This document shows, in pieces, positions 1 through 64,000 of a stretch of DNA of 64,000 bases. Numbering within the stretch: the first letter of the stretch is position 1; every line of letters begins with the position of its first letter. The stretch lies in contig OY540814.1 in assembly GCA_961205875.1 (NCBI GenBank), forward strand, positions 3,224,001 to 3,288,000. The letters run 5' to 3'. This DNA comes from Sialis fuliginosa (taxonomy: Eukaryota; Arthropoda; Insecta; Megaloptera; Sialidae). A program made the translations under genes and the position numbers. The notes below the pieces were generated by a model. That model saw only the letters and a program-made list of their open reading frames with translations, made no database searches and was not told where the DNA came from.

Positions 1-430
1 TTCTATTTATTTTATTTGAGCAAAAACAAAAAAAAGTACGAAATGTTAACAAATTTCTAGAATAATTCTCCAAGTTTCATTAGACCAAAATAAATATTTT
101 TTGTATCTTGTACTTTTTTTCTAAAGTTTATGGTTTCTGAGTAAAAAATTCTTGAAAGTTCAAATTCTCGAATTATTTTGTTAGATATCTTGGAAATATT
201 CGTGTTTTTTGACGTAGAATAAGATTACTAAATAAAAATTAGAGGTTCCTATTTAAAAAAATGATGTTGACCTTCAAATAGCCTTGAAGGCCACGTTAAA
301 ATAGCAAATAAATATTACTATTCGATTACCCCCTCACAACCAAACATTTTTTGGTTGAAACATTTATTTCAAATATGCGATGGTTCTGAGATAATCAACT
401 GTAACACTTTAAATGCCATATAAATGAAAT
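1..430 (+). repeat. Degenerate interspersed repeat, family O
   Basis: Bases about 200-430 recur almost unchanged at 60335-60545, including the stretch 'atgatgttgaccttcaaat' and 'caaccaaacattttttggtt'. The first 190 bases resemble 18400-18500 ('agtaaaaaattctcgaaagt'). No open frame or terminal repeat was recognised, so the class is unknown. Boundaries are approximate. Confidence 0.7.
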
Positions 431-4906: not shown

Positions 4907-5038
4907 ATGACACTGAAGCTAGCGGCCGGAGCTAGCGGCCAGACATCAATAGTCACTATCTAGAATTAAACGGTTAAAACAATTGTAATAATCATTACAC
5001 CCGCTTTATTTGGGTATCAAATTGTAGATATTTACAGT

Positions 5039-9478: not shown

Positions 9479-10640
9479 GGATTTTTTAAATCGATTTAAA
9501 GATCAAATTTTATTTTATATTTTATATTTGACAACTAATTGGTATTACAGGCGGTGGCATTTTTTTTTAATTTTTATTTCTTTTGTATGTTATTACAATT
9601 GTAAATACCTATAGTTTGATACCAGTATAAAGTGGGGACAAACATTTTTACAATTTACTGAGCGATTTTTAATGGCGCGCGTCGCGCGGCGAGACCATTT
9701 TCTAAGTGTGGAATCCAGAGGCATTTTTTTAGAATTTTTTTGTCTTGATTAAATTATTTTCAACATGATTTACAATTTTTCATGCTATGTCAGATATCAG
9801 GTCAGAGAATTTTAAGACTTTTTAAATCGATTTAAAGATCAAATCTGACATATTTGACAATTAATGGGTATTACAGGCGGTGGCATTTTTTTGGAATTTT
9901 TATTTCTTTTGTATGTTATAACAATTGTAAATACCTACAGTTTGATACCCATATAAAGTAAGGACAAACATTTTTACAATTTACTGAGCGATTTTTAGTG
10001 GCGCGCGACGAGCGGCGAGACCATTTTCTAAGTGTGGAATCCAGAGGCATTTTTTTAGAATTTTTTTGTCTTGATAAAATTATTTTCCACATGATTTACA
10101 ATTATTTAAACCATTTCAGATATCAGGTCAAAGAATTTTAAGACTTTTTAAATCGATTTAAACATCAAATCTAACATATTTGACAATTAATTGGTATTAC
10201 GGGCGGTGGCATTTTTTTGGAATTTTTATTTCTTTTGTATGTTATTACAATTGTAAATACCTACAGTTTAATACCAGTATAAAGTGGGGACAAACATTTT
10301 TACAATTTACTGAGCGATTTTTAATGGTGCGCGACGCGCGGCGAGAACATTTCTTATTGTGAAATCCAGAGGCATTTTTTTAGAATTTTTTTGTCTTGAT
10401 AAAATTATTTTTCACATGATTTACAATTATTTAAGCCATGTCAGATATCAGGTCAGAGAATTTTACGACTTTTTTAATCAATTTATACATCAAATCTAAC
10501 ATATTTGACAATTAAATTGGTATTACAGGCGGTAGTATTTTTTTGGAATTTTTATTTCGTTTGTATGTTATCATAACTGTAAATATCTACAATTTGATAC
10601 CCAAATAAAGCGGGTGTAATGATTTTTACAATTGTTTTAA
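9479..10640 (+). repeat. Right-arm tandem array, inverted, 3 units
   Basis: These are the same 326-bp units in opposite orientation, with the marker's complement at 9791, 10117 and 10442 (spacings 326 and 325). The innermost unit is degenerate ('ttttattttatattttatat'). The outermost is the 325-bp variant also found outermost in the left arm. The arm abuts the left arm directly, so the whole element can fold into a hairpin over about 1.2 kb. Confidence 0.93.
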
Positions 10641-15292: not shown

Positions 15293-16140
15293 TAATAATA
15301 AACGTAAAAAATCATGAACAAAAAAAACTGGCTTGTGATGTTTTTTTTTCGTGGTTTGTAATAAAAAAAATTGGTCAATTTTCGATAAAAATCGACTCAT
15401 TTTCAAATGCTTTTTATTACCCAACTCCCTGACATATAACCACAACGTATGGCCCTTTAAATAAAAGCTCTAAGTACCCACTTTAACATAACGTATAAAT
15501 TAATTATATTGTGTTTTAATATGAAATAATACATAGTATAAGAAAGTTAGTAAAACATTTTTTCGAATTAGAGATTTTAATGGATATATCCATTTTATCT
15601 ATTGTGACTATTTTCGCCATGATGTTTGTATGTCTGTTGGTCTATCGATGTAACTCAAAAACTACATAATAAGGGTATCAATAAATAGATACAAATGTTT
15701 ATAATAAAAGTTATTTCTATAATTTATGGTCTATTAATTTGTTCAGCTACTCAGAAAGATTTGTTTTTTGTACACTTATTACGTATAAGAAAATTCCGTA
15801 GTAACTTTTTAATAATTAAAAAAAAAATGTATGAACACAGTTTTCGCCGCCACTGGTATTCAGCAAATGAGAGCGGCAAATTGCAATACACTGAGTGGGT
15901 GGGGCGGTTTGAAATAAATAAAAAATCTCAGATACCGGCGATGGCAATGAAACACTGATGTATTACTTTAGAGAGGAAGCGAGAAATACTTTCATGTTAT
16001 TTTAACAAATATTCACTGCCAATATTATTTTACTCTAGAATATCATTTAATAAATATCTTTTGTTTAATCTGCCTACAACGTATGTTGTTGTTTTAGACT
16101 CTGATGACGATAGTATTGCTATTGAAACACGTGCAAGTCT
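15293..16140. other. No gene recognised; family D fragment
   Basis: Near 15530-15650 a stretch ('tataagaaagttag', then 'gactattttcgccatgatg') resembles the reverse complement of family D. The 87-codon frame at 15695-15958 has AT-driven composition and no recognisable domain. Nothing else is supported. Confidence 0.35.
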
Positions 16141-16143
16141 AAA

Positions 16144-16232
16144 TTTTTAAATCCGGAATTATAAAAGAGCTAAATTTGTTAGCTTACAAGCACTTTCAAA
16201 CGGGGTATCAAACCTACATGACAGTTCCCTCC
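16144..16232 (+). repeat. MITE family B, solo left-end fragment
   Basis: The run 'ccggaattataaaagagcta', a 'gcttacaagcactttcaaa' block and 'cggggtatcaaac' parallel the left end of the complete family B copies, then similarity stops. From 16233 to 16930 I see only AT-rich DNA. Confidence 0.6.
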
Positions 16233-25752: not shown

Positions 25753-25957
25753 TAAGGTACTAGCACCAGTCTTGGATATGACTCCAGTAATGGATAATTT
25801 TTAATTTAATATACTGAATTAGAAATATTTGTTGATATTTGATTACTACCATTTCTAAATTTCAATCTATAAACATTTAACTGTCTTACAGCGTGATTTG
25901 ATGACAATCGACCAATAGGTATCAAAATGGTGGACATTTAAACTAATTATTCGTATA

Positions 25958-26076
25958 CAAGTCTTGAGGCTTGCACTTTTAGAAGAGCTCTGAAGATGTT
26001 CACTGTAATGTGTGACGAAACGTTGGCCGATAACACGACCAAATCAACGCGGTTTACACCCAGAAGCCAAGATCCA
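25958..26076 (+). mobile_element. Penelope-type insert, 119 bp, 14-bp target duplication
   Basis: It is flanked by a perfect duplication TAATTATTCGTATA (25944-25957 and 26077-26090), which the family A consensus has once. It holds a hammerhead-type core (see the separate entry) followed by 'cgaccaaatcaacgcggttt' and 'acccagaagccaagatcc'. The long variable duplication and hammerhead core fit a heavily 5'-truncated Penelope-like element. 'acccagaagccaaga' also occurs at about 39649. Confidence 0.75.
25986..26027 (+). ncRNA. Hammerhead ribozyme-like core
   Basis: Core CTGAAGA (25990-25996; position 7 is free in the family) and GAAA (26017-26020) flank a stem II of about 6 pairs with one bulge. 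The helix III strand is the palindrome ACGT (26020-26023), followed by T as the nucleotide 5' of the predicted cut. Three pairs of stem I can form (gct with ggc). Loopless palindromic helix III is known from Penelope-borne hammerheads, which act as dimers. Activity is not shown by sequence alone. Confidence 0.6.
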
Positions 26077-26426
26077 TAATTATTCGTATAATTTATTAAT
26101 TACTTATTACATTATCATAGTAACTGCTTTACATTGTTTCAAAATTGACGATTCTTTCTTTTATATCTTTTGTATCCATCACTGCGTGCTTATTACTGGT
26201 TGTACTTTATCCATTATAGGAGAAAAAACATAAACAAAATAAAAGGCTGTTATTTAAAAAATAAACTATAATTGTGGACTTTGGTAATTAAATTGATTAA
26301 ATAAAGAGATAGTTGTTTTATTAGTAACATGAGTTCATGAGAATTACAAAAAAGAAGCCCATCAATCACAAAAACAGTAAACCTTGCTCTTATAGCGGCC
26401 ATAACTGGTGCCAGTACCTTATAGAT

Positions 26427-27035
26427 CTAATCAAATTTTAAATTTTGAAGAAAACAAAAATTAGAACTAATTTTATCCACGTAAATCTACAATTTTACTC
26501 GGCCATTTTTATTTCTGAAATTTAAAATAAATCTAAGTGGATCTTTAGCTATAACAACACAGAAACATTTCGAAGTTTATAAACCACAATATCACTCACT
26601 TTTGTCGTCATATTCTTTCCACAAGAGTGGACTCGTGCAGTTGATTTATTCCAACCCTTTTTATATAGATACAGTGTTCAGATTACACCCTTGCCTATTT
26701 CACCAAATCAAGTTATGATTACTAAGCAGGGTAAATACGTCATCTACATAATACCTAGGCATTGAAGAGAAACTGCACAACCAGATGGTTGCAAATTATT
26801 TTTTATACCCATTGTCAAATGCAAATAATACTTGCTAAAATTACTTTGTAGGTATCATTATTATAAAATTTGCAAAACAAGTTTTTCAAATTAATGTTTA
26901 AAATTGAATCCAAACAATACCACTATAAAACTATGCCACACAAAAAGTTCTCATAAGGGGTCTTATAGTTCTAGATTAATACAATCTTGGTCAGAACCTA
27001 ACCTAACTAATAGAATTGATAAAGTTTAACATAGC
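26427..27035. other. No gene recognised
   Basis: AT-rich sequence without shared modules or supported frames. Confidence 0.4.
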
Positions 27036-44445: not shown

Positions 44446-45755
44446 AATGGCCAAGTGCGTGTTGGGCACGCACATGATAGGTTTCTGTAGTCATTACGAT
44501 TTATAAACAATAATTATTTCAACGGACGCTCTGATAACGACATTTAAATGCAAATATATCGTGACTGAAGGGTTAAAATCAAAAGGTCATATAACATTTT
44601 TTGTTGCATTTTAGGAGACCTATCTAAATGGGTTAAGTAAAAAAAAATTTGAGAACAGTTTTCAGTCTATGGGAGGGGGTCCAAAATAATTTTGACAGTG
44701 TTCGTTATAATTTTCAGTGAAAGTACTAACTCAAAGCTACATTCTGAATTTTTTTCAGATTTTTTGAATGGATAGTTTAGAAATTAGGGTGGGGGGGGGA
44801 CGCTCTGATAACGACATTTAAATGCAAATATATCGTGACTGAAGGGTTAAAATCAAAAGATCATTTAACAAGTTTTGTTGCATTTTGGGAGACCTATCTA
44901 ATGACATCCCACTCAATGGGTTAAGTGAAAAAATAATGTGAGTTCATTTTTCAGTCTATGGGAGGGGGGTCCAAAATAATTTTGACAGTGTTCGTTATAA
45001 TTTTCAGTGGAAGTACTAATTAAAAGCTACATTCTAAATTTTTTTCAGATTTTTTGAAAAGATAGTTTAGAAATTAAGGCGTGGGGGGGGACGCTCTGAT
45101 AACGACATTTAAATGCAAATATATCGTGACTGAAAGGTTAAAATCAAAAGATCATTTAACATTTTTTGTTGCATTTTAGGATACCTATCCAATGACATCA
45201 CATTCAATGGGATATGTGAAAAAAAATTGTGAGTTCATTTTTCAGTCAATGGGAGTGGGGGCCAAAATAATTTTGACAGTGTTCGTTATAATTTTCAGTG
45301 GAAGAACTAATTAAAGGCTACATTCATGAATTATTTCAGATTTTTTAAATTGATAGTTTAGAAATTAGGGGGGGGGCGCTTTTATCACGACTTTGAACGC
45401 AATTATATCGTGACTGAAGGGTTAAAATCATAAGTTTATAAGTTAAAATCAAAATGTCATATTGCATTTTTTATTGCATTTTAGGAGACCTATCTAAAGA
45501 CTTAATTTAATTAATTTTCACTTAATGGATTACGTGAAAATTTTTTTTTGAAAATACTTTTCAGTCTATGGAGAGGGGGTCCAAAAAAAATTTTTTTTTC
45601 ATAAATATTATCATTTCTGTTTTTGGGTTATCAGTCTTCGTCTGTATACCAAATTTCATCTTAATCGGCTTAAAATTTTTGAGGACGGACGGACATGGCG
45701 AAACTATAAAGTTTCCTAGTTTTCTACGGAAACCTAAAAATAGGGATATTTTCTA
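44446..45755 (+). repeat. Repeat family R with ~275-290-bp tandem units
   Basis: It opens 'atggccaagtgcgtgttggg' and 'cacgcacatgataggtttct'. Units starting 'gacgctctgataacgacatt' are at 44525, 44799, 45090 and, diverged, 45376. Each has 'gcattttaggagacctatct' or a variant and 'cagtctatgggagggggtcc' or a variant. It closes with 'aatcggcttaaaatttttga', 'ggacggacatggcgaaact' and 'tctacggaaaccta'. The single-unit copy at 50085-50578 shows the same head and tail. The 'ggtttc' start and 'ggaaacc' end give the family weakly inverted ends. Confidence 0.85.
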
Positions 45756-48714: not shown

Positions 48715-49655
48715 TGCTTTATAACCACTTATGTTTTCAAAAATATATGATCTGAAACGCATTAAATCAAAATTTGGTTATTTCCAATCAGGGGTGTATT
48801 AAGATTTAGAAGACAAATAAAGTTACTTACAACTAAATTTTGTAACCACTTAGGAGTTATGTTTTTGGAAAATATATAATCTGAAACGCATTAAATCAAA
48901 ATTGGGTTATTTCCAATCAGGGGTGTATTAAGATTTAGAAGACAAATAAAGTTACTTACAACTAAATTTTGTAACCACTTAGGACTTATGTTTTTGGAAA
49001 ATATATAATCTGAAACGCATTAAATCAAAATTGGGTTATTTCCAATCAGGGGTGTATTAAGATTTAGAAGACAAATAAAGTTACTTACAACTAAATTTTG
49101 TAACCACTTAGGAGTTATGTTTTTGGAAAATATATAATCTGAAACGCATTAAATCAAAATTTGGTTATTTCAAATCAAGTGTGTATTAAGTTATGTTTTC
49201 GAAAATATATAATCTGAAACGCATTAAATCAAAATTTGGTTATTTCAAATCAAGTGTGTATTAAGTTATGTTTTCGAAAATATATAATCTGAAACGCATT
49301 AAATCAAAATTTGGTTATTTCAAATCAAGTGTGTATTAAGTTATGTTTTCGAAAATATATGATCTGAAACGCATTAAATCAAAATTTGGTTATTTCCAAT
49401 CAGGGGTGTATTAAGATTTAGAAGACAAATAAAGTTACTTACAACTAAATTTTGTAACCACTTAGGAGTTATGTTTTTGGAAAATATATAATCTGAAACG
49501 CATTAAATCAAAATTTGGTTATTTCAAATCAAGTGTGTATTAAGTTATGTTTTCGAAAATATATAATCTGAAATGCATTAAATCAAAATTGGGTTATTTC
49601 CAATCAGGGGTGTATTAAGATTTAGAAGACAAATAAAGTTACTTACAACTAAATT
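48715..49655 (+). repeat. Composite minisatellite, 129- and 75-bp units
   Basis: The marker 'ctgaaacgcattaaatc' (one copy with a T) occurs at 48752, 48881, 49010, 49139, 49214, 49289, 49364, 49493 and 49568. Spacings are 129, 129, 129, 75, 75, 75, 129, 75. The 75-bp unit is the 129-bp unit lacking about 54 bp ('agatttagaagacaaataaa' to 'ccacttaggag'). Units of a class are nearly identical, implying recent expansion. Confidence 0.95.
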
Positions 49656-51295: not shown

Positions 51296-51299
51296 ATAA

Positions 51300-51572
51300 T
51301 CAATTTTCGACAAAAGTTACATAGGACAAACTAGGAAATCAATAAACATTAGATTTAAAGAGCACATGGCTGACCTGAAATACAACCAGGTTGATAAATC
51401 CAGCGTAGCTCATCATATGACTACATTAAATCACACAACAGATATAAATAATTTTAAACTAATTAAAACATGCAGTAATCAATTAGACGCAGCAGAAAGC
51501 TTAGAAATCTTGATGGAAAGACTAAGATTTTTAATAGTGGTACCAGACCTATCCCAGCTTCAATCCTTCTAG
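51300..51572 (+). pseudogene. GIY-YIG endonuclease remnant of a Penelope-like element
   Basis: The frame is open from 51300 to a stop at 51570-51572. It gives DKSYIGQTRKSINIRFKEHM at its start, where YIG, the GQT-R spacing, and the R..EH helix match the GIY-YIG domain that follows the reverse transcriptase in Penelope-like retroelements. SSVAHHM, LNHTTDINNFKLI and LDAAESLEIL follow in the family's usual order. The expected ending (RPIPASILLD) is found in the neighbouring +2/+3 frame at about 51543-51573, so a frameshift has occurred. The domain start (GIY strand) is missing. It is an inactive fragment of a larger polyprotein. The enzyme nicks the target DNA for reverse transcription. Confidence 0.8.
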
Positions 51573-51667
51573 ACCTTGCAGTTGATTGGTCAGAATCATT
51601 GAAGCGAGATAAGCCCTTTTTTATAAATATAAGATTTGACCAAGACTGAATCAGTCTGGAACTGTTA

Positions 51668-51712
51668 GGCTTCTGATGAGAACTTCTTGTGAAGTCGAAA
51701 CACGTGTTGTGT
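51668..51712 (+). ncRNA. Hammerhead ribozyme-like core in Penelope 3' part
   Basis: CTGATGA (51673-51679), a strong stem II (ACTTC TTGT GAAGT) and GAAA (51697-51700) are all present. Helix III strand ACACGTGT (51700-51707) is a perfect palindrome with no loop, suiting dimeric folding. T at 51708 is the base 5' of the predicted cut. Stem I is damaged here compared with 59863, with one mismatch and one wobble. Confidence 0.7.
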
Positions 51713-51792
51713 GACATTGTTTTATTGTGGTTAATGTGTATATTTTTAGTTTAAGTGACTAAGAAACCACAGTTTCTCCGTTTTTCCAGTAG

Positions 51793-51925
51793 AAAGTAGG
51801 TAGCCTATGTTCTTCCTGAGTATGCAAGCTATCTCCCTGCCAATTTTCAACCAGATCGGTTAAGCGGTTGAGTCGTAAGAAGGTTACAGACACAGAGTTA
51901 CTTTGGATTAGTATGGATTATTTTC
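51793..51925 (+). repeat. Retroposon family N tail, right of Penelope insertion
   Basis: 'aaagtaggtagcctatgttc', 'gagtatgcaagctatctccc' and 'accagatcggttaagcggtt', then an acaga-type tail and 'ggattagtatggatt'. It continues the head at 51271-51295. Confidence 0.75.
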
Positions 51926-52526
51926 TATATTTTTTTAATAAACATAAACACATTGAATATTTTAATTTTAAATAAAGGATTCACACGAGTAAGCACATAT
52001 TTAATATATTAAATTAACAACGGGCAACTGGAATTTCGAAATAACATAATAAATACAGCATTCATAAACCCGTAAAACATAAAAACAAATGGGTTTAGAA
52101 ACGATTACACATTTGTGAAATCAATCACGTTCTAATGGAAAATCCAGATGAACAAAAAAAAGCCTATACTTTTCGACAATCCTTTCATCGTATTTTTTGT
52201 GCGAGGATGAAATATGAACCCGTCCTGCGAATGAAGAGTTTATTGACATGTTCATCTATATTATATTCGGTGGTCCAAAAATAACGCGCATTTTATAGAA
52301 ATATAATTTTAAACACATAAAATAATTGATGAAAATTTAACACTAGACATATATGAGCTGCTTTTACGTAATAACTATTTTAGGGGGAGGGGGATACAGC
52401 TATATTGTCTACATGGAGTTAAATGAGGCCCTTAAGCAATTGCTCTAACTCCAAAACTTGTACCTCTGTAAGATAATTTTATAATTTGTAATTTGTAAAT
52501 ATTCATTCTAACTTTTCTTTAAACAG
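51926..52526. other. No gene recognised
   Basis: AT-rich. A G-rich 'agggggagggggata' lies near 52382. No modules shared elsewhere. Confidence 0.4.
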
Positions 52527-52660
52527 ACCTGTCTTAATTCAATTAGAACAATTTTTACAAAAAATTTAATGTTTTTCTTCACTATCCTTCTTAGCCTGGC
52601 ACCCCGGGCGGTCGCCCAACCTCCCCACATCCCTAAAGTCGGCACTACTTATGGTCTTGT
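52527..52660 (-). repeat. hAT-type MITE fragment (family I)
   Basis: 'gcctggcaccccgggcggtc' and 'taaagtcggcact' are the complement of the left end of the MITE at 20698 ('gccgactttaggg', 'gcaatcgcccgaggcaccag'). The other side begins 'cagacctgtcttaa', weakly like that family's second end. No duplication was identified. Confidence 0.55.
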
Positions 52661-52799
52661 CTTATCGCGATGGTAGCGACGCGTTCAGTGGTAAAAATCG
52701 AAACTAACGCAATCTGGTCAATTATATATCATCTAACCTAATTTAATCAGTGTTTAGTAAACAAGTAAATCAGTGATTATATACTTTTAACAATTAAAG

Positions 52800-53075
52800 T
52801 ATTTAATTTCTTTTATTCGCAGCGTGCGCGATGACAGCGCCGACTAGCGGTTACAACTGGGGCGGGCTTTGACATAGCTGTCAAAACGAAAAGTTAAACA
52901 AATAATTTCAATAAAATATAGAAAAAAATATATTTTTTAGTTGATTCTATATAACAATAGTGTGGTTAATCATGTTAACCTTTCTATTTTTAGTTAAAAA
53001 TGAGCCCGCCACAAGTTCCCTTTTGGCCACCTCGTGCGCTGCGATCGATTTCGTTTCCTCCACCACCTATTTCGC
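52800..53075. repeat. GC-rich imperfect inverted-repeat segment
   Basis: 'tcgcagcg...ggcgggct' (52820-52868) is mirrored by 'agcccgcc...cgctgcga' (53003-53046). Between them is AT-rich sequence. On the plus strand a 28-codon frame with many Pro starts at ATG 52999. 'gcgccgactagcgg' near 52840 resembles a CTCF-type site. Either a decayed MITE or a regulatory island. I cannot decide. Confidence 0.35.
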
Positions 53076-53584
53076 ACTTACAATGAGCCAATAGAGAAAA
53101 TAAATATCTATAACTAATGAAAAATACCTCGAAAATGGCTGGTGCTAGGTTTTTTTTTTAAATCTATCAATAAAATGTACTGTTGCATATATGTTAGTTT
53201 TTTTTTCTTTTTTTATGAAATTAAAAGCCTAATTAGTATAACGTTTAGTCCTTGATAACTGATATAATTATTTTAATAAACATAAGAATATTATTCATGC
53301 ATTCATAATACAAAAATTGATACTATTTTCAATAAATAAGTGAATTAGCAATAATACTGATTTATGAGTTTGAGTGCTTATAGCAGTACAAGAAATCAAA
53401 AACTACAGCTGAAGAAAATTTCTAGTCTTTTAGTTTAATAACAAAAAAAACTTGTGATATGGAAATAGCGAATTATTTAATTAAACATTTTTTTCAAACT
53501 AACAACTGACAGCTGACCCAATAAGAATAGTTCATTTTTTTTACCACACCTGCACCGTGGCGTACGATCAACGACACATATCAA
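53076..53584. other. No gene recognised
   Basis: AT-rich sequence with poly-T tracts. No shared modules. Confidence 0.4.
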
Positions 53585-54640
53585 ATACAAATAAAATAAA
53601 ACTCATCTTTGTATTATGAATATTAGTTTTCTAATATCCTGTCAATAATATAACACACATTTTTAAAATAACTAATTTGACAATAGGCATGATCCCAGAA
53701 TCCCAGTAACAAAGTATCACTGAAATTATGATTTTAAATAATGAAATAGGTTAAAAAGATCCTAAAAAATGTATTTATTTTTAAATTAAAAGCGAGATTA
53801 ATATGATTTTTGTTAAAATAAAAACGCAAAATACAGCAATCCGCCATGTTTGATAAAACACCAGTCAGAGTGAGTGACGTCACGGCTAGGTAAATGTCAT
53901 TTTTGTTTCATTAATATCTGCACTGTTTATAAATTATGTTGTGGTTTTAAATTATCAATTTGCTCAGTTTTGTGTTATAAAAAGTAAAACCGAGAAACAT
54001 TAGCGATGGAACAAGGATTTATTATAGTTGACAAGGAGTGTTTACATAGGCGTAACGTCAAAAATGCGCCATGACACCTGCGAGCGTTTTGGTGTCAAAT
54101 TTAAAATTAGTTTTAAAAGGGTAAATTTTTGTGATTAAACCTTTATTTTCTGCAGAAATAAGCATTTTTTTGGAAATAAGAGACACGTAAGATCATCATA
54201 AAATAGTTTTTAAAAATTAGGCATCATGCCTATTAGAATTAAATTGCATTTGTTTTATAAAACGTACTGTTAGAGTATAACAATTAAAATTTAATTGCAT
54301 TTGTTTCGAAGGCAACATGAATTGTATACTTATTTATTAGTATTTAAAATTCAAATTTTGAGGGTGGTTTTCACCTTTCACCCCTTCAATGACTGTTTAG
54401 GCACGTTTAACAAAAAAAATACTGAAATACATGTTTCATTATTCGTATTGTAGAATATTTATGCTAAGTTTCAAGTAAATCCGAGCAAAAAATACTTTAC
54501 ACCCCTTTTTATTACCCCCGAATTTCGAAAAATCCTTTCTTTCAGATCATAATTACGTCAAGAATTTTTGATTTTGGTTTTCGGGTTGATTACAATAACT
54601 TTCAGTTGGGAAGTTAATAAATATTTAGTCAAGTGTCCAA
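53585..54640 (-). repeat. Left arm of a large inverted-repeat pair (family G), split by element Q
   Basis: Bases 53585-53686 and 54233-54640 are the complement of 55575-56175, read in order: 'atattagttttctaatatcc', 'ttttcacctttcaccccttc', 'tttaggcacgtttaacaaaa', 'agtttcaagtaaatcc' and 'actttcagttgggaagttaa'. The arm carries a 545-bp insertion (element Q). Confidence 0.8.
53687..54232. mobile_element. Element Q, ~545 bp, in the left arm
   Basis: The start 'aataggcatgatccc' and the end 'gcatcatgcctatt' form inverted termini of about 12 bp. It interrupts sequence continuous in the partner arm. A left-end fragment with the same 'cagtaacaaagtatcactga' follows at 62093-62150. The superfamily is undecided. 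Confidence 0.6.
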
Positions 54641-55559
54641 GTAGTATATTTCGATATCCCATCTGACAATCTGACCGTAATATATAGAATAATCGTACCT
54701 TCATACTTCATCTGATGAAGCTAAAGAATGTAAAACATTTCTACATTTGCATGCACACACATTTTCATTACAAAAGCTACAATTTAGTGCGCGGCTAGAC
54801 AGAGAACCATCGTGCCCGCGCCCGTCGGGTTCCTTTGGCCTTGGCCAGTGCATTCTGCAACAAAACTGCATCTAGATATGTGTACTTAGGCTTGTCTTAC
54901 ACAGTAAAATATAGCCTTTAAATAATCACGTATAACTTATTTACTAAATGTGTGTGACTTTGTACAATATGAATTATTCCACAACATAATTGCCAAAAAG
55001 TTTAAGCCTGCTTTATTTAATTTCTATACTGTAGTAGTTAATTAGTAATTTAAGATATTATTTACATTTATTTTTCATTTTTTCCATTTTATAATAAAAA
55101 ATAAGTAATTTATTTAATATAAAGGAACTAACAATATATGTTAGCTAACAAGCACTTTCAACGGGGTATTAATTGTATTAATTATGTGATATTATCTATG
55201 GATTTGTTTTAGAATTTAGAGCAGTCATACTTTAACTTATTATAACACAGTATGTACAAAATAATTTCATAATATCACCACTGTTTTAAAACCATTTGTG
55301 TTTATTTACCGCGCGTGCGAGGAACTTGTCAAACATTTCATGAAACTTCAAGAGAACTGTCATATGTTCAAAAAATTAAAGATGGTCTCTTTTAGAGACG
55401 AGAGTTAAATTCGTCTCGTTTCGAAGTTATTTCATCTCATATACGTGATCGAGATGAGACTAACTGAAAGCGAGAAAAATTTATATCTCGTGTCTTTTCT
55501 TAAAAATACTTATGTAATAAACTATAAACAATAAAACGAATCGTATATATTTTACTTTG
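54641..55559. repeat. Spacer between inverted arms; MITE B fragment
   Basis: It holds a GC-rich patch at 54787-54850 ('gtgcccgcgcccgtcgggtt') and a family B fragment at about 55118-55370 ('aagcactttcaacggggtat', 'cataatatcaccactgtttt'). A stretch at 55385-55500 has repeated 'gagacgag' and 'gagatgagac' motifs. No gene was found. Confidence 0.5.
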
Positions 55560-56345
55560 ATTATAAATTTAAGGATTATTATTAACTTCCCAACTGGAAG
55601 TTATTGTAATCGATCCGAAAATAAAAATAAAAAATTTCAACATATTTGTATGTTTCAAGGTCACTATAATATATTTACACTATTTTCAAAAAAATATGTG
55701 TGTGTGTGTGTGCGTGTGAGTGTATGTACGCAAATGAAAAAAGCTATTGACTTCGTTGGGGTGCCAATCGAAGCGTCTTGACGTAAATATGATCTGAAAA
55801 ATAGGATTTTTTGAAATTCAACCCCTATGGGGGTAAAAAGGGGTGCAATGTTTTTTTTGTTTGGATTTAGCATAAATATTCTACAATACAAATAATGAAA
55901 CATGTATTCCAATATTTTTTTTGTTATACGTGCCTAAACAGCCATAGAAGAGGTGAAAGGCGAAAACTATCCTCAAAATTTGAATTTTAAATACTATAAA
56001 TAAGTCTACAATTCATGTTGCCTTGGAAACAAATGCAATTAAATTTAAATTGTCGGACTAGTTTTATAAAGCAAATACAATTCAAATTAGTTATTCTAAA
56101 AATGTGTGTTATATTATTGACATTAGGATATTAGAAAACTAATATTCATAATACAAAGGTGAGTTTTATTTCTGACCAATTCAATTAAAATTTTTCATAA
56201 ACATATTAAAAAAATATTCACATAAACTATATGGAAACAATAAATAATCAGTATTCAAGTATTTATAATCATACCGTGTTGGGAAGTTGATTGTGTGGAC
56301 CTAAAGGATCTCACCCCAACCCAAGGCTTATTTTTTAATAATTTT
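55560..56345 (+). repeat. Right arm of the inverted pair plus family G body
   Basis: 55575-56175 pairs with the left arm. 56040-56340 is also a direct copy of 38376-38690. A (GT)n microsatellite interrupts at 55696-55715. The two opposed frames over the microsatellite (55557-55781 plus, 55664-55912 minus) are not genes. Bases 55800-55845 share 'gaaattcaacccc' and 'gggggtaaaaaggggtg' with family F at 10795. Confidence 0.8.
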
Positions 56346-56617
56346 TGCTAATCCTTAAAATCCTCGGCAAGACTCTTGTCCGATTTGAAACCAATCTTAT
56401 AGAATAATCAATAATAAATAAATGCCACTTATAATTTTGCTTGATATTTAAAAAAATTTGTTATAATTGTTAAAAATAAAATATATTACCCCCCTATTTT
56501 TTTAGAAATAATATCGAATTCCACTAATATTTGTGATATTGTCCAGTAAAAGAAGCATTTTGACACGAAATTTTAAGCAATTTTATGGTTGATTATTATA
56601 GATTTTGGGGCCTAGAA

Positions 56618-56784
56618 TTAAAAATGGGGTTGAAGGGTGAAAACCCCGTTTCCAAGCTTTTTTTCATATTATCTCAAAATCTAAATCGATCATGTTTTTT
56701 TTTATACTAATTACTCTTTCTAGAGGGCTTAAACCATACAAAAAACATGGAAACGGGGTTTTCACCCTTTAACCCCATTTTTAA
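56618..56784. repeat. Hairpin-forming inverted repeat, 37-bp arms
   Basis: The arms at 56618-56654 and 56748-56784 are complementary except for one position, with a 93-base loop. The arms carry 'gggtgaaaaccccgtttcca'. From 56346 to 56617 and 56785 to 57198 the DNA is AT-rich and unrecognised. Confidence 0.88.
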
Positions 56785-57198
56785 GGATGTTGCACCACTT
56801 TTCTGTCCCTAAAACACTTTCTTGCCCCTAAAAGTTCGTTTTTTTGCACTTCTCACTGCTTCCTTGACTGGACTAATAGTGAATTTTTTAATTAAAGTAA
56901 AATCAGTATATTATAAATATTATATCTTTTTATTTTCTATCTAATGAAATAATTTGGTATTTGAACGTTTTGTACCTATATATTTTTCCAGTGTAACTCT
57001 GGCCTTCCATACGCGTCTGAGTCTGTGTTACTAGGGACTGCAGCCGATCTGTAGTTTTGTTTTTATTTACAAGTGAAGGTTTGTGTACTACTTACGAAAC
57101 AGACATGACCGACTGCATCTATATCAGGGATGGCAAAAATGTCAGAATCGTCAAACTTTTATAATACAAAACTAATTATATTTAAACAATGATACAAA

Positions 57199-57472
57199 AT
57201 GATAATTATCAAATATATGAACATTCATAATCAAAACTATGAAAATGGTAATTATCTACAGTATGTGAAACGCAAGCGATCGGGGAAATCCCGTAATAGC
57301 TGGGTAACATTAAAACACAAAACTAACGACATTTTAACCATTGACAAAATGATAATTATTAAATATATGAACATTCATAATCAAAACTATGAAAAAAGGT
57401 AATTATCTACAGTATGTGAAACTCAGGCGATCGGGAAAATCCCGTAATAGCTGGGTAGCATTAAAATACAAA
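57199..57472 (+). repeat. Tandem duplication of a 150-bp unit
   Basis: 'atgataattatcaaatatat' at 57199 and 'atgataattattaaatatat' at 57349 start two copies with few differences, each containing 'gatcggg.aaatcccgtaat' and 'agctgggta'. Because 150 is a multiple of three, a plus frame (57199-57402) repeats MIIIKYMNIHNQNYE. This is a consequence of the duplication. No function is suggested. Confidence 0.88.
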
Positions 57473-57720
57473 GAAGAAGGTTAGATAATATAGATTTCTG
57501 TTATGATAGTCGATAAAACAGATCGCCCGGCAAATGTCACACACCCATTGCTTTTTATCTAATCAATTTTATTTAACAAAGTAGCCTATGAGCGCGTCCT
57601 CAGAATGCAAACTATCTTCCTGCCGAATTTCATCAAGATCGGTTCAACGGTTTAGCCATGAAAAAGTAACAGAGAGTCAGACACACTTTCGTATTTATGA
57701 TATAATATTAGTATGGATAA
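57473..57720 (+). mobile_element. Retroposon family N copy
   Basis: 'gaagaaggttagataatata', 'cgataaaacagatcgcccgg', 'cctcagaatgcaaactatct', 'catcaagatcggttcaacgg' and 'cagacacactttcgtattta', ending 'ttagtatggataaac'. The order is the same as at 28250 and 33131. From 57721 to 58090 nothing is recognised. Confidence 0.8.
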
Positions 57721-58094
57721 ACTATTTTATGACTTTATATATATACATTTTCTAAATATTATTTTAAATTCAGTTTTTGGTAACCACACATCTAATATTT
57801 TATTTTCGTACAGTCCGTTTATTTCCAAGATTTTATAATTCTGTTTATAAACTTTAAGAACTATACGTACCATTTGTATTACTGAATAATTTATATTTCA
57901 GCCGAATATATTGTTTGGGAAGAACATACATGAATATTTGATATATTTTATTCTAACTTTGTTGGAAAAATATGGCTCATGGCTTATACGTACGCTCCAG
58001 CAAGTCAGTGCGGTACATTGTTTTTTTTAATTCTTAAAAAATAAATACACAGGTAGAATATTTTTATCATGATAAACTATTAATAAAATAAATT

Positions 58095-58140
58095 TTGAAG
58101 ATGTGCATTGTAATGTGTAAGGAAACGTTGACCTGACCTA
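58095..58140 (+). ncRNA. Decayed hammerhead-like Penelope motif
   Basis: 'tttgaagatgtgcattgtaa' and 'tgtgtaaggaaacgttgacc' align with the core at 25990-26027 but with the first core C changed to T and the base before GAAA altered. Expected to be inactive. It marks another old Penelope-type insertion. Confidence 0.5.
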
Positions 58141-58238
58141 TATAATATTCAAACATTATCATCACAGCAAGAATAAAAGTTTTATTTTAATAAAACAATT
58201 TATATTGTATTACATTATACTATATTATAACTCATATA

Positions 58239-58794
58239 AGGTACTGGCACCAGTTATGGCCGCTATAAGAACAAGGTTTACTGTTTCTTTTTTTTAATTC
58301 TCATGAACTCATATTACTAATAAAACAAGTAACTCTTTATTTAATCAATTTAATTATCAAAGTCTGCAAATATACTTTCTTTTTTTAAATTATAGCCTTT
58401 TATTTTGTTTATGTTTTTTCTCCATTAATGGATAAAGTAAAACCAGTAATGAGCACGCAGTTATGGACACTTGCTAATAATTACAAAATAATAAGTACTA
58501 CGCCACAAAAGATATAAAAGAAAGAATCGTAAAGCAGTTGCTATGATAATATAATAAATAATAATTAATTAATAATATAATTAAAAAATAATACCTAATA
58601 AATAATTAGTTTAAATGTCCACGATTTTGACATTTATTGGCCGATTGTCATCAAAAATTAAGTTTAAGTTAAATGTGTATAGATTAATATTCAGAAATGG
58701 TAGTAATCAAATATCAACAAATATTTCTAATTCAGTACATTTAATTAAAAAATAGCCATTACTGGGGTCAAATCTAAGACTGGTGCCAGTACCT
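58239..58794 (-). mobile_element. MITE family A, copy 11 (complete)
   Basis: A 556-bp copy with perfect-looking 16-bp termini AGGTACTGGCACCAGT and ACTGGTGCCAGTACCT and TA on both sides (58237-58238, 58795-58796). A useful reference copy for the family. Confidence 0.93.
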
Positions 58795-58858
58795 TATCCA
58801 GTGTGGTCAAAATAAAATGTAGTTTTTGTAAAAAAAAATTTTTACCATTTATATATAT

Positions 58859-59206
58859 GTACTAGCTGTGCCCGTGGCTTCACTCGCTTAAATATAAAAA
58901 TTAGATATATGGTATCTTGAGTTTATTTTAGATCTTTTTATTCTAAACAATTCTTTACTACATTACATTTAACGGTTTATATATAGTGTATTGCAAAAGA
59001 GCGCGCTGGCAGCAAACTGTTTACTATTATCATCACTGCTTATTCCTTATGTTACCTACCGTAACAAAATATATACTAAAACCTGGACAAAGAACATATC
59101 TATGAATTAATAAAATACGTTAATCGGATAATTGGTTCTCGAGTCATAAGCGCAAAAAACGGACAGGCAGACAGATATACATTGCGTTTTAAATATGTAA
59201 GGATAA
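58859..59206 (+). mobile_element. Retroposon family E, copy 2
   Basis: Head 'actagctgtgcccgtggctt', then 'ttattttagatctttttatt', 'attccttatgttacctaccg' and 'gacaggcagacagatat', ending 'aaatatgtaaggat'. Matches 22373-22745 throughout. From 59207 to 59680 nothing is recognised. Confidence 0.78.
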
Positions 59207-59682
59207 AATTAATTTAAATTTCTTGTACGTCACTGCTGTCCAAGTCAGTTCAATTTTTATAAAAATAGATACGTGTTACGAATGCTTAATTTCCCCATAA
59301 AGTTTTATTTTACCTTCCGAATTTACTTCACAGAATATTAAATAATTTTATTAAAGTGAACAGTTATATTTAATACACTGAATGATTATAATAATAGGAT
59401 TTACACCTACTATACATCTATAAATAAATACTACATAAAGAACATGGGAGAAAAAATATGGTAAAACCTTAGATTACAAAATGAATACTTATAATCGAAA
59501 TTTAAACAAATCGATTGGAATTTTTTTAAATTAATCTTCTTATTACCTTAATATTTTATTTTGGCATGACAACTCTATTATCATTTTTTTTATGATAAAA
59601 AACATTTAAACCATTGCAGATATTAAAAATACATTTTAATGCATATATATTTTTATAAGAATATTTTATATAATATTTATTA

Positions 59683-59780
59683 ATGCTTGACGATGATTCT
59701 GTGAATCAAAAGCTGGCGATTACCTTTTCTTGAATAAATTTTGATGTTTAGACAAACAAGTTTGTTTTTATATATTAATT
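59683..59780 (+). repeat. Penelope-type end with decayed hammerhead core
   Basis: 'cttgacgatgattctgtgaa', 'tcaaaagctggcgattacct' and 'gacaaacaagtttgttttta' align with the arm of the palindrome at 62650-62788. The core CTGACGA has become TTGACGA and GAAA is AAAA, so ribozyme activity should be lost. Confidence 0.65.
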
Positions 59781-59823
59781 AAAAATAGAAGCTTCAAATA
59801 ATCGTTTTTATCTAATAATAAAT

Positions 59824-59981
59824 TTAAACTAAAATATACACCAGACTGGAACTGTTAGGCTCCTGATGAGGACTTCTTGTGAAGTCGAAACACGTGTAGA
59901 GTGACATTGTTTTATTGTGGTTAAGGTGTATATTTTAGTTTAAGTGACTAGAAACCACAGTTTTCTCCGTTTTTCCAGTAG
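59824..59981 (+). mobile_element. Penelope-type insertion, 158 bp, 12-bp target duplication
   Basis: It is flanked by a perfect CTAATAATAAAT (59812-59823 and 59982-59993). It starts with 'ttaaactaaaatatacacc', the exact complement of 'ggtgtatattttagtttaa' at 59923-59941, so the insertion begins with an inverted piece of its own 3' part. It then has the hammerhead core and the same tail as 51713-51792, ending 'ccgtttttccagtag'. Inverted terminal pieces and variable target duplications are typical of Penelope-like elements. Confidence 0.85.
59859..59902 (+). ncRNA. Hammerhead ribozyme core, best-preserved copy
   Basis: CTGATGA (59863-59869), stem II GACTTC TTGT GAAGTC with one extra base next to the core, GAAA (59887-59890), palindromic helix III ACACGTGT (59890-59897), then A (59898) in a GTA cleavage triplet. 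Stem I pairs ctc with gag plus a G-T wobble. All conserved core positions are present. Dimer formation through helix III is likely because no loop can close it. Confidence 0.75.
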
Positions 59982-59993
59982 CTAATAATAAAT

Positions 59994-60330
59994 GTTAATA
60001 TTTTATTTTAATCAGTTTGTCTAATGAATTTATTTATATTATTTAATAAACAATACATTAATCGTGACGATAATATTTATATCTTGCGAAAAAAAATTTT
60101 TTCAGTAAGTAGTACCTAAAGTGATCAAATCAGATCTGATAGATCTACATTTTGAGACAAAATCATATTTTTTCACTGATTTTTGATCTGTGGAGACCTG
60201 CAAAGATCTGTAACGATATACAAAGATCTCTGAAGATCATTGTAGATCGTGATAGATATTAAAAAATTGAAAATTCATTAATTTTCAACGTTTTAATCTC
60301 TATCACGAGTTTTTTTGAAGTTTTCAATGA
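59994..60330. other. No gene recognised; GATC-rich cluster
   Basis: Eight GATC tetramers, five of them within AGATCT-like words, fall in about 126 bases (60123-60248). The remainder is AT-rich. Confidence 0.6.
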
Positions 60331-60334
60331 AAAA

Positions 60335-60545
60335 TTCGTGTTTTTCCTCGTAGAATAAGATTACTAAATAAAAACTATAGGTTCCTATTTAAAAAAATGA
60401 TGTTGACCTTCAAATATCCTTGAAGGCCACGTTAAAATAGCAAATAAATATTCGATTACCCCCTTACAACCAAACATTTTTTGGTTGAAATATTTTTTTC
60501 AAATATGCGATAGTAATCTGTAATACTTCAAATGCCCCACCCTGT
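60335..60545 (+). repeat. Degenerate interspersed repeat, family O
   Basis: A close copy of 200-430 ('cgtagaataagattactaaa', 'ggttcctatttaaaaaaatg', 'aggccacgttaaaatagcaa'). The reverse frame 60499-60774 starts here and has no recognisable domain. 60546-60915 is unrecognised. Confidence 0.85.
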
Positions 60546-60923
60546 ATGTAACGCTGGGCACGATTTGGTTAAAATTAAACCTCGATCGGGTTGACTGACG
60601 AACATCCACGCACTGATAATCAAAATGCACGAAAAAAGAAGAAAATAATGGGACGAGAGTAATACCACACTGCAAAGTATGCTTTGGGTGTGCTAATATG
60701 CCTAGATAATATTGAGAAAATATCATCAAATATTTTATGTAGTGTAATGGAACAAAATCTCGAATATTTATCAATGAAATATGATCAATCGTTTGTCAAA
60801 GATATTTGACATATTTAAGTTTGATGGTGTAATAGCCGCTTTACAAATAATTTATCTGATTTAACCAAATCTGTGATACTGATTGTGAGATACCATACTG
60901 GAAAAGTTATAATACAGTATACC

Positions 60924-61303
60924 CAGTGGCGTATTTACGTTAAGTGCTGCCCTGGGTAAAAAATAATTGCCACCCCTTTACCAATAATTTATTTTTGACA
61001 GCCAGAATTCCTTTATAAACTGAAAAGTGTAATTTTTTACAAATTACGGAAAATATAATATAAATTAAAAACTGATAACTTTTTTTGATCACGTCGATTG
61101 AAATTTCTGATTTTATAAACTAAAAAGTTTGGAAGATAGGGAAATAAAAACTTGAAGACCTTTTTTTTTAATCGCGTGTTACACATTTTTTGTCTCCCTA
61201 TTTTTTTTTAAATATACTATATTAAACTAAAAAAATCTACCGCCCCTCTAAGCCTGCCGCCCTAGGCCATGGCCCCCATGGCCCCATGGTAAATACGCCA
61301 CTG
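60924..61303. mobile_element. hAT-type MITE, 380 bp, perfect duplication
   Basis: Both ends read CAGTGGCGTATTTAC inward, 15 of 15 matching. A perfect 8-bp duplication AGTATACC lies at 60916-60923 and 61304-61311. GC-rich subterminal parts ('gctgccctgggt', 'ggccatgggggccatggcct' on the complement) enclose an AT-rich middle. Confidence 0.95.
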
Positions 61304-61311
61304 AGTATACC

Positions 61312-61790
61312 TGTATCCTGTACTTCTAAAAAATATTGAGAACCGCTGATATAAACATACAGGAAAGCTTGGAACCTTATTTAATAATAGCATTATTTAA
61401 ATATAACACTTACAGACAAACTAAATAAAAATAATATTCATTGCAATATCCCCTTGAAATTGATTTGACCCGTCTGTTTATAATTTACATCAATAAACAC
61501 TTGTTATTTTCAACGTATATATGTTTCTCTTGTTTTTTTACTTTCATAATCGTCTGACATTTGAAGGGTACTACACTTGTTTACATACGCGGTTCTTTTG
61601 TTATTTGACACAAAAGGAGACCAATGAAATGATTGCAAATTAAGTTAAAGTAAGAAACAATTCAATATTGGGAATGTGATATTTTATTACATATCGTAAT
61701 ACAAAAATATTGCTTACGTGAAATATTTTCTATGCGTAATAATGAGATATCCAGAAGTAAATTTAGGCAGAATAATTTTGGGATTCAACT
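61312..61790. other. No gene recognised
   Basis: 'tattgagaaccgctgatata' near 61333 resembles a worn hAT end of the type at 51170-51191. Otherwise AT-rich and unrecognised. Confidence 0.35.
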
Positions 61791-61791
61791 A

Positions 61792-62092
61792 AGGTACTGG
61801 TACCAGTTAAGGTTTACTGTTTTTGTGGTTGACCGGTTTATTTTTTGTAATTCTCATCATTCATATTACTAATAAAACAAGTTCCTCTTTATTTAATCAA
61901 TTATTACCAAAGTCCGCAAATATAGTTTGTTTTTTAAATTATAGTCGTTTTTTTCTCCAGTAATAAAGAAAACCAGTAATGAGCACGCAGTGATGGACAC
62001 TTTAAGTACTACGACACGAAAGATGTAAAAGAGAGAATCATCAAATTTGCTATGATATAATAATTAATACATAAATTATACTAATAATGGTC
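61792..62092 (-). mobile_element. MITE family A, copy 12 (truncated)
   Basis: It starts AGGTACTGGTACCAGT after TA and follows the reverse-orientation order with several small deletions, stopping at 'aattatactaataatggtca', where an element Q left end ('caatagacatgatgccagta') follows at 62093-62150. Confidence 0.85.
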
Positions 62093-62558
62093 ACAATAGA
62101 CATGATGCCAGTAACAAAGTATCACTGAAATTATGATTTTAAATTTTTATGTTTTTATGTTTGTTCGGGCATAACTCCAACAAATATACACCAAATTTGT
62201 AGAGTTGGGCATTTTAGTTCATGACAGAGAGCTCTCCCTATAGTTCAGTGGTCTTTAATGAACTAGTTCGTTCTTCTAGTTCATAGAATTTTTTCCGGAC
62301 TAAACGATTTCAATTTATTGATTTAGATATATTGGATTATTGGATTTTTAATGTATAATTACATTATTTAATTAGTGATTTTTTATTACTATTTTTTCAT
62401 GAAACCATAGAAATTCAAACTGCTGCAATTTTGAATTCGTTATTAATTTATAGACAAGATCGATATTTTTAAATGTAATATAATAGTAGTGACGTTAAAT
62501 ATAAATAAAAACAAACTTATTTGTTTAAACGTCAAAATTTAATTAAGAAGAGGTAAAC

Positions 62559-62592
62559 GCAAGCTTTCGATTCACAGAATCATCGTCAGGCT
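62559..62592 (-). ncRNA. Hammerhead ribozyme-like core (minus-strand arm)
   Basis: Mirror of the plus-strand core: CTGACGA at 62589-62583, GAAA at 62568-62565, helix III palindrome AGCT. Identical to the other arm. Confidence 0.65.
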
Positions 62593-62698
62593 ATTAATAA
62601 AGATTTAAATTTGAGAACGATGTCGTTATCTCAATAATATTAAATCATGAATATTATTGAGATAACGACATCGTTCTCAAATTTAAATCTTTATTAAT

Positions 62699-62733
62699 AG
62701 CCTGACGATGATTCTGTGAATCGAAAGCTTGCG
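62699..62733 (+). ncRNA. Hammerhead ribozyme-like core (plus-strand arm)
   Basis: CTGACGA (62702-62708), stem II GATTC TGT GAATC with one bulged base, GAAA (62723-62726), palindromic helix III AGCT (62726-62729), T at 62730 before the predicted cut. Stem I starts with two G-C pairs (gc with gc) before a loop. Confidence 0.65.
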
Positions 62734-64000
62734 TTTACCTCTTCTTAATTAAATTTTGACGTTTAAACAAACAAGTTTGTTTTTATTTTTAAATGTATAT
62801 ATATTTCCATGTTTTGTTTGTTTTTTAAATCGAACCCTTGATATATATGAAAATTATGAAACATCTTCCATGATACTTTATTTATTGTATAATTATTTAA
62901 TCTGTGACATTCCTTTTTGTTGATTGTCATAAGATAATATAAAAATCACGCCCTTTTGACTGGCATATTGCATTCATGTGAACAAAAAAAATCAATATAA
63001 TATATCTTTAGTAAAATAAATTCGAAATTGGTAATAAAGTATTGAAAACGTTAATTATTAAACATAAAAATCATACGATCTCGTTTTTTGAACAGTGTAT
63101 TTAAAGTGTATCGGGAATTATTGAACTAAAAGAGCGGAGCGCATACGAACTAGTTCCTCTAGTTCTCGTGTGGAAGCGCTCTTTTGAACTAGTTCGTTCG
63201 TGAACTACACAAGTCTACAAATTTGACGATTTTTTTTATTGAAAGATTATACTCCCGAGGTAGTCTCATATAAATTTAATCAGAATCTTACCATGGACAC
63301 TCAAAAGGAAAAAAAAAACGACTTCAAGAAACCCCAAAAGCAAATATACCTATATACAAAGTGCAACAGTTTTTTTTTATATCGGCCATTTTAGTAAATT
63401 TTTGAAAAAAACCAGAATTATACATATTAATAGCAAAATTTCAAAAGTTAAAGAGCCTATATTTTTTAAACATGATTTTTATATTGCTTAAATGTCTATG
63501 CTACACTATCAGATCAAAATAAAATTTATGAATAACAAAACCAAAAATTGGCTGCAGTTTAACATTTAAAAACTTATAAAACTTTGATAAAATTATTTCT
63601 TAAAATTTTTTTTTTTATAAAATCTAGTACACTTACAGACGTTCAGATCGTTGTAAAAACTGCGCTATTTTATACCCTTTCGAAAAATCTACTATAATAC
63701 CTACATGAATTGGCTATTTTTGTTAAAAAAAACTTTTATCCCAGAATAAGTATGATATTTACATTTTTACAGTAAGTCGATCGTAGTACGCTATTTTAAA
63801 TAAGTCATTAAAAACGCGATACGATACTTTTAAAAAAAATTTATACACATTGGACAGTGTAACATCTACTCCTGTGCAACGAATGATCCTGTCCATTTAT
63901 ACGGCATAACAACCCGGAAATTTAAAATATTTTAACTAAAATAAATAAATATCACCAACGTTTAAACGAAACCAAAATCAATCAATCAATATAATACGTA

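Follow-up and report, generated by a model that had tools for sequence, protein, structure and literature searches.

Minimal type I hammerhead motifs are already known from Penelope-like elements (PLEs), where thousands of dispersed copies and possible cleavage as dimers have been described (PMC7761336, PMC6155905). For the Poseidon PLE of Anolis carolinensis (PAc), in vitro work found that both target strands are cut and extended and that hammerhead mutants insert normally (PMC11167929). In the same system, reverse transcription (RT) is initiated inside the RNA, at two sites between which the tail lies (PMC11167929). Here, we describe four families of hammerhead-bearing insertions, F1 to F4, found in a stretch of 64,000 nt of the alderfly Sialis fuliginosa (contig OY540814.1, positions 3,224,001 to 3,288,000; hereafter the window, with positions counted from its first letter) and traced through its 392-Mb genome of 20 contigs. 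Our reading, to which we give a probability of about 0.75, is that these are PLE insertions made by paired internal RT starts, with a minimal type I hammerhead just downstream of a putative transcription start and with a template that is mostly left uncut.

A first-pass annotation of the window, made from its letters, had named five cores, at 25990, 51673, 59863 and 62702 on the plus strand and 62589 on the minus strand. All five are present, and each is followed by a ACACGTGT, AGCT or ACGT palindrome and then a non-G base; the looser pattern CTGANGA-N{6,24}-GAAA has 9 matches in the window, compared to 1.63 on average in shuffled sequence. The cores at 51673 and 59863 belong to F1, those at 62702 (plus) and 62589 (minus) to F2 and that at 25990 to F3. 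At least three subtypes had been claimed; three stand, but the count was low, since there are at least four, the fourth (F4) lying at 16094–16145 (22 bits, E 2.4e-4, with R1, a covariance model based on seven 59863-family variants). Likewise, the cores at 62589 and 62702 are both real but are not independent copies, being carried by the two arms of one insertion, which are 99% complementary over 142 nt. The first look at the genome gave 1745, 1276, 1797 and 738 candidates for F1 to F4, unconfirmed as copies, and scoring 40 candidates per family yielded 60, 70, 61 and 51 matches, respectively.

The families are insertions of several PLEs, and the earlier reading of Penelope-type insertions with hammerhead cores is thus supported, both by a reverse transcriptase in homologous copies and by PLE architecture. 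The F1 copy at 51302–51792 (plus strand), which is 5′-truncated and comprises an open reading frame (ORF) 3′ end, the unit and the tail, is 92% identical over 499 columns to genomic elements with upstream coding sequence (loci L008 and L126). The L126 frame matches RVT_1 (PF00078) at E 5.8e-12. A GIY-YIG domain was matched in frames of a further F1 locus, L125, at E ~0.003 and 18.2–18.4 bits, below the Pfam cut-off of 22.6, with the motif itself read by eye, and had no match in the L126 frame. For the GIY-YIG link proposed for the window copy, homologous frames offer this weak match; the 90-aa open-frame remnant at 51300–51572 (plus), probably from the C-terminus of the element protein, where GIY-YIG would lie, has homologous frames elsewhere but no Pfam match at E≤1, so that its identity rests on DNA similarity. 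A 400-nt piece of the ORF found 59 first-look candidates compared to 1745 for the F1 unit, indicating that most F1 copies lack the ORF. For F2–F4, architecture and motif point to PLE membership.

By their letters, the motifs are minimal type I hammerhead motifs with a predicted cleavage site. All four families share one plan, consisting of CTGANGA, one unpaired base, stem II, GAA, a palindromic stem III (ACACGTGT in F1 and F4, AGCT in F2, ACGT in F3) and a non-G base, and thus carry the type I core (CTGANGA ... GAA, with a non-G at position 17). Stem II is paired at 5/5 positions in every family (mean 2.67 for arms mixed between families), and inner stem I at 3, 2, 3 and 3 of 3 positions in F1 to F4, against 1.33 when mixed; these values come from a hand alignment that omits one bulged base of the F3 stem II, a MAFFT alignment of three families having been discarded for misaligned stems. 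Genome-wide patterns with the three palindromes matched 1681, 2871 and 1780 times (6332 in total), compared to 0, 3 and 7 matches (10 in total) for reversed-pattern controls; the patterns demand a G two bases past the core and so favour an extra base after CTGANGA. Sixteen stem II variants, namely F1–F4 and twelve picked by hand among the matches listed (100 of 1681 and 100 of 2871), self-pair at 57/64 positions with one extra base and at 26/64 without it. The value of 57/64 was reached by none of 20000 permutations, and the same was true when the pattern-fixed position was removed (41/48, 0/20000).

The F1 covariance model matches F4 (best E 3.1e-9) and reaches only E 0.17 at best on the F2 and F3 loci supplied. 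A first strict hammerhead descriptor returned zero matches in the window, for F1–F4 all have an extra base on one side between CTGANGA and stem II, which this descriptor did not tolerate. The covariance-model check proposed in the first-pass annotation is split: no Rfam match reaches threshold, but stem covariation over the sixteen variants and the cross-family match of our own model are positive. Because the Rfam gathering score is not reached, we use the label minimal PLE-type hammerhead-like motif. In kind, the window is not exceptional, since 6332 pattern matches in 392 Mb correspond to about one per 62 kb for the three stem III types. Further stem II variants beyond F1–F4 occur in the genome, some of them head-to-head (for example at C1:842986, C1:4208428, C1:6625607 and C1:928497), and in CTGAGGATGAATCTGTGATTC stem II is compensated relative to F2.

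The insertions have the architecture already known for PLEs, with head-to-head arms of which usually one is tailed, and short target duplications. Tailed copies number 454 in F1, found with the exact 29-nt tail (0 matches for the reversed tail) and sampled as the first 70 listed, and 523 in F2, of which 10 were read. In 51/70 F1 copies there is an inverted arm whose outer end falls at q94–113 (q denotes positions in the unit). Because the F1 script rejects inverted arms with outer ends more than 12 nt away from q104, F1 is unusable for counting tails per pair; before filtering, no adjacent inverted arm among the first 50 F1 loci reaches the tail. Target duplications scoring at least 7 with at most one mismatch flank 38/50 of these first loci, with a mode of 12 nt. 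Among F2–F4, 40/52 loci are head-to-head pairs, and exactly one arm is tailed in 36 of the 40, both in 0 and neither in 2, with 2 intermediate cases. For F3 and F4 alone, 18/21 pairs have one tail (tail sequence made up ~14 nt of the F3 query and was absent from the F4 query). Exact target duplications of at least 9 nt were found at 34/52 F2–F4 loci.

We then placed the ends of the arms relative to the predicted cleavage site. In F1, 43 of 121 placed ends fall within q-4..8, where 8.8 would be expected at background density, whereas only 4/121 come within 3 nt of q57|58, where cleavage is predicted, compared to 4.7 expected. As many as 79/121 ends are at or upstream of q50, meaning that these cDNAs were copied across the cleavage site; 11/70 loci have no arm that crosses it. 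The other families behave similarly, with 16/41 (F2), 19/25 (F3) and 26/28 (F4) ends near the start, 29/41, 22/25 and 27/28 arms crossing the cleavage site, and 0/94 ends within 3 nt of it; among the 41 F2 ends, at least three are surplus short BLAST pieces (in L082, L089 and L157), which arise from a self-complementary stretch or are fragments and were kept in. Over all families, 104 of 215 ends lie at the putative start, and 4 within 3 nt of the cleavage site, which 157 of 215 arms cross. The common stop point has a CAGT-type initiator-like sequence with TATAAATA upstream, at -31 in the F1 copy L008 and at -32 in the F4 copy L142, which is why we take it as the putative transcription start. 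As cDNA ends pile up at this start and not at the cleavage site, the hammerhead does not usually trim the inserted RNA, which suggests that inserted copies are mostly made from RNA uncut by the motif. The pile-up at the putative start is possibly new.

The same ends bear on a different origin, in which the repeats would be retrozymes, independent non-autonomous elements whose hammerheads cut tandem transcripts into monomers that are circularised and reverse transcribed. Hammerhead-bearing non-coding repeats of 100–300 nt do fit this description, retrozymes have been described in animals (PMC7229834), and at one F4 locus, L131, three F4 units are repeated in direct orientation every 95 nt. Yet the arms of a pair stand head-to-head, their two outer ends are fixed, and the ends do not mark the cleavage site. 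L131 is the sole direct tandem among the 18 F4 loci read, with no genome-wide search for direct tandems made, and its junctions consist of TTAGG repeats instead of the native continuation that a circle would keep. A retrozyme origin is therefore highly doubtful. The three direct units of L131, at ~200–560 of the locus (G000:C13:6377300-6378000), sit in one insertion and may reflect template jumping or a later tandem duplication.

The two arms of a pair also share alleles. At q69, which has two alleles, the arms agree in 31/32 pairs (Fisher 8e-6), and nine non-majority letters are shared between arms, six of them at q69, compared to a permutation mean of 1.8 and a maximum of 8 in 500. One-sided differences between arms number 95, and at q4, beside the junction, the arms disagree in 2/7 cases. 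This sharing, which is possibly a new observation, indicates that the arms mostly derive from a single RNA or from RNAs transcribed at the same locus. It would also be produced if a single cDNA folded back and primed its own second arm, so that one priming event gives both arms, and self-priming on an antisense template has been proposed for rotifer PLEs (PMC3846280). Such snap-back synthesis is distinctly improbable here, as the outer ends usually differ, with one tailed and one untailed arm in the 36/40 F2–F4 pairs counted above, and the inner ends are often unequal.

Measured from the start of the hammerhead core, the two outer ends lie at 81–82 and 117–118 nt in F1, 84 and 113 nt in F2, 88 and 119 nt in F3, and 81 and 116 nt in F4; these are the commonest values, with end motifs chosen from the loci. 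The distance from the putative start to the core is 20, 61, 20 and 15 nt, respectively. The interval between the core and the cDNA starts has no sequence similarity in 5/6 family pairs, F1 and F4 being the only pair with any (z 3.55). A near-constant spacing of 81–88 and 113–119 nt across four families is possibly new. Could the motif nevertheless be a relic, inherited without present function, with the spacing reflecting only common descent of the leader? The insertions show no sign of hammerhead use, the Rfam score is weak, and F1 copies lack clear excess conservation of the core, all of which agree with this idea. Against it, stem II varies but stays paired and none of the four families has lost the palindrome, features that drift alone would break, and the spacing is maintained though 5/6 family pairs are otherwise dissimilar. 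We consider a functionless relic improbable.

Together, these observations can be arranged most simply, after the lizard PLE studied in vitro (PMC11167929), into a model of paired internal starts, in which the transcription start, the priming from both strands and the role of the motif are what we infer. The element protein would cut both target strands ~12–15 nt apart, and each target 3′ end would prime RT inside the RNA, at a site either ~82 or ~117 nt downstream of the hammerhead core start, on one RNA or on sister RNAs of one locus. In the copies themselves, one arm usually starts at the distal site, with the tail, and the other at the proximal site ~29–36 nt upstream. Both cDNAs would extend towards the capped 5′ end, often halting early, and would then be joined. 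The RNA copied would usually be uncut at the hammerhead, so that the main act of the motif would not be template trimming, with a small share of cut templates possible. Because its distance to both start sites is nearly fixed, the motif may lie within the RT-initiation complex, and cleavage, if any, might be late or confined to tandem (dimeric) transcripts; this is the least certain step of the model.

A bolder version would make the PLE hammerhead an architectural part of the RT-initiation complex, with its start sites used one per target strand. Here, the palindromic stem III would pair two sister RNAs of one locus, providing each strand with its own template, and cleavage, if any, would follow cDNA synthesis and release the template. 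We regard this version as rather unlikely, and its pairing step of sister RNAs is unsupported by dimer folding. If it were true, many minimal hammerheads dispersed in animal genomes would be by-products of a twin-primed start and not separate elements.

Several results weigh against the model of paired starts on mostly uncut RNA, or limit what it can claim. At single-nucleotide resolution, 3/121 F1 ends fall exactly on the predicted nucleotide q58 by BLAST coordinates, compared to 0.67 expected per nucleotide. Inspected by eye, L046 was over-extended by BLAST, and L080 and L111 have 1–3 nt of microhomology; an internal deletion may account for L080, and L111, with 2 nt of microhomology, is ambiguous. 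A minority of cut F1 templates is thus possible. The Rfam hammerhead is absent from the window at gathering scores and at E≤10. Of three better copies tried, L111 gave a sub-threshold RF00163 match (17.7 bits against a gathering score of 34, E 0.53) and neither of the others gave any. Dimer folding of F1–F3 yielded energy gains equalled by 56, 131 and 91 of 200 shuffles, respectively, and the predicted dimers differ from a double hammerhead. Divergence of the F1 core, at 1.8%, is only slightly lower than the ~2–3% elsewhere in the copies, and this comparison gives no clear selection on the core within F1. Among the loci read, no full-length element with an ORF start was found, the ORF having been sought in F1 only. 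Lastly, the target-duplication counts (38/50 and 34/52) stand without a random control, and the F2–F4 loci are mostly best matches, a bias towards long arms.

Within the window, three insertions have target duplications, of 12, 13 and 13 nt. The F1 insertion is bounded by exact repeats of CTAATAATAAAT at 59812–59823 and 59982–59993, and consists of a short untailed inverted arm at 59824–59842 (minus; q102 to q84, 100% over 19 nt) and a tailed direct arm at 59842–59981 (plus), which covers the stretch between the putative transcription start and the distal cDNA start, is 98% identical to the L008 copy and has ends common to other copies. Its hammerhead motif at 59854–59908 (plus), supported by stem covariation and with cleavage predicted after A59898, scores 89.4 bits with model R1, this copy being itself among those from which the model was built. 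The truncated F1 copy described above has a motif at 51664–51718 (plus) with four pairs broken (R1 73.3 bits, E 3.7e-21), and no target duplication was identified for it by eye. In the F2 insertion, ATTTTTAAATGTA at 62465–62477 is repeated exactly at 62785–62797, the first letters of the right repeat overlapping the adjacent arm; the tailed arm spans 62477–62638 (minus; core 62565–62589, 99% over 162 nt) and the untailed arm 62653–62791 (plus; core 62702–62726, 99% over 139 nt). The F3 insertion lies between exact repeats of AATTATTCGTATA at 25945–25957 and 26078–26090, with a short inverted tail piece of ~14 nt at 25959–25972 (minus; identified by eye against the tail in L091–L104) and an untailed direct arm at 25973–26078 (plus; core at 25990, 95% over 106 nt). 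This insertion is nested in one copy of a dispersed repeat with complementary ends (GGTACTGGCACCAG-like), found at 25757–26425, at 58240–58810 and from ~61790 (by eye).

The remaining members are fragments. Two decayed cores that the first-pass annotation had placed near 58095 and 59685 proved to be family relics, an F3 fragment at 58096–58133 (plus; 84% over 38 nt, E 1e-6) and an F2 copy at 59672–59775 (plus; 89% over 105 columns). The F4 fragment, previously overlooked, extends over 16092–16149 (plus) and is 90% identical over 58 nt to L140. A further decayed fragment related to F1 occupies 26939–27001 (minus; q-21 to q40, 81% over 63 columns, E 6e-10).

Elsewhere in the window, we noted a satellite array at 5000–10633 with a 326-nt period and two blocks seemingly inverted to one another, a tandem array at 44524–45434 with a 291-nt period, and nested tandem arrays at 48729–49655 with periods of 75, 129 and 204 nt. 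A large interrupted inverted repeat at 53594–56171, with several arm pairs of 36–130 nt at 84–98%, is probably a fold-back element, and a hairpin at 56618–56784 has 45-nt arms that are 93% complementary. Rfam miRNA models match this hairpin below gathering scores; such miRNA matches, located on inverted repeats, were set aside by judgement.

F1–F4 are new members of the PLE families with minimal hammerheads, with which they share a type I core, a very short or palindromic stem III and dispersal in animals by the thousands (Cervera and de la Pena 2014; Lunse et al. 2017, via PMC7761336, PMC6155905). With metazoan retrozymes they have in common that they are small non-coding hammerhead-bearing repeats, but direct tandems and RNA circles are described there, in contrast to the fixed-end head-to-head pairs here (PMC7229834). 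The endonuclease-bearing Penelope families of the rotifer Adineta vaga are similar in their head-to-head arms, target duplications (8–10 nt there), TATA and initiator-like sites in the repeat, and junction palindromes (PMC3846280). They also have an optional 31-nt tail on one inverted repeat and an inverted arm that is 37 nt shorter (PMC3846280). They differ in being present in few copies, compared to hundreds of tailed and mostly short copies per family here, and a term search for hammerheads in the text retrieved from that paper gave 0 matches (PMC3846280). In the titles and abstract openings searched, we found no description of ends mapped against the cleavage site, nor of the spacing; we make no claim that these are absent from print.

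Since the ends of tailed copies (454 in F1 and 523 in F2) record where RT started and stopped, natural insertions can be asked whether cleaved RNA was their template. The answer from 215 ends, "mostly not", agrees with one in vitro study (PMC11167929), and the near-fixed spacing, along with the one-tail-per-pair pattern, leads to testable statements on the build of the PLE complex. PAc resembles these families in several respects: the hammerhead adjoins the leader, two internal RT starts are used, both target strands are cut and extended, and the hammerhead is dispensable for insertion there (PMC11167929). The main PAc RT start lies 111–118 nt into an ORF beginning at stem II (PMC11167929), which is near the core-to-distal-start distance of 113–119 nt in F1–F4. 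PAc differs in that its RT start sites are alike on both strands (PMC11167929), whereas pairs here mostly have one of each; the loci read here yielded no ORF start. To the lizard study, the genomic copies thus add a predominant use of one site each per pair, a mostly uncut template, and a motif held at a near-fixed distance.

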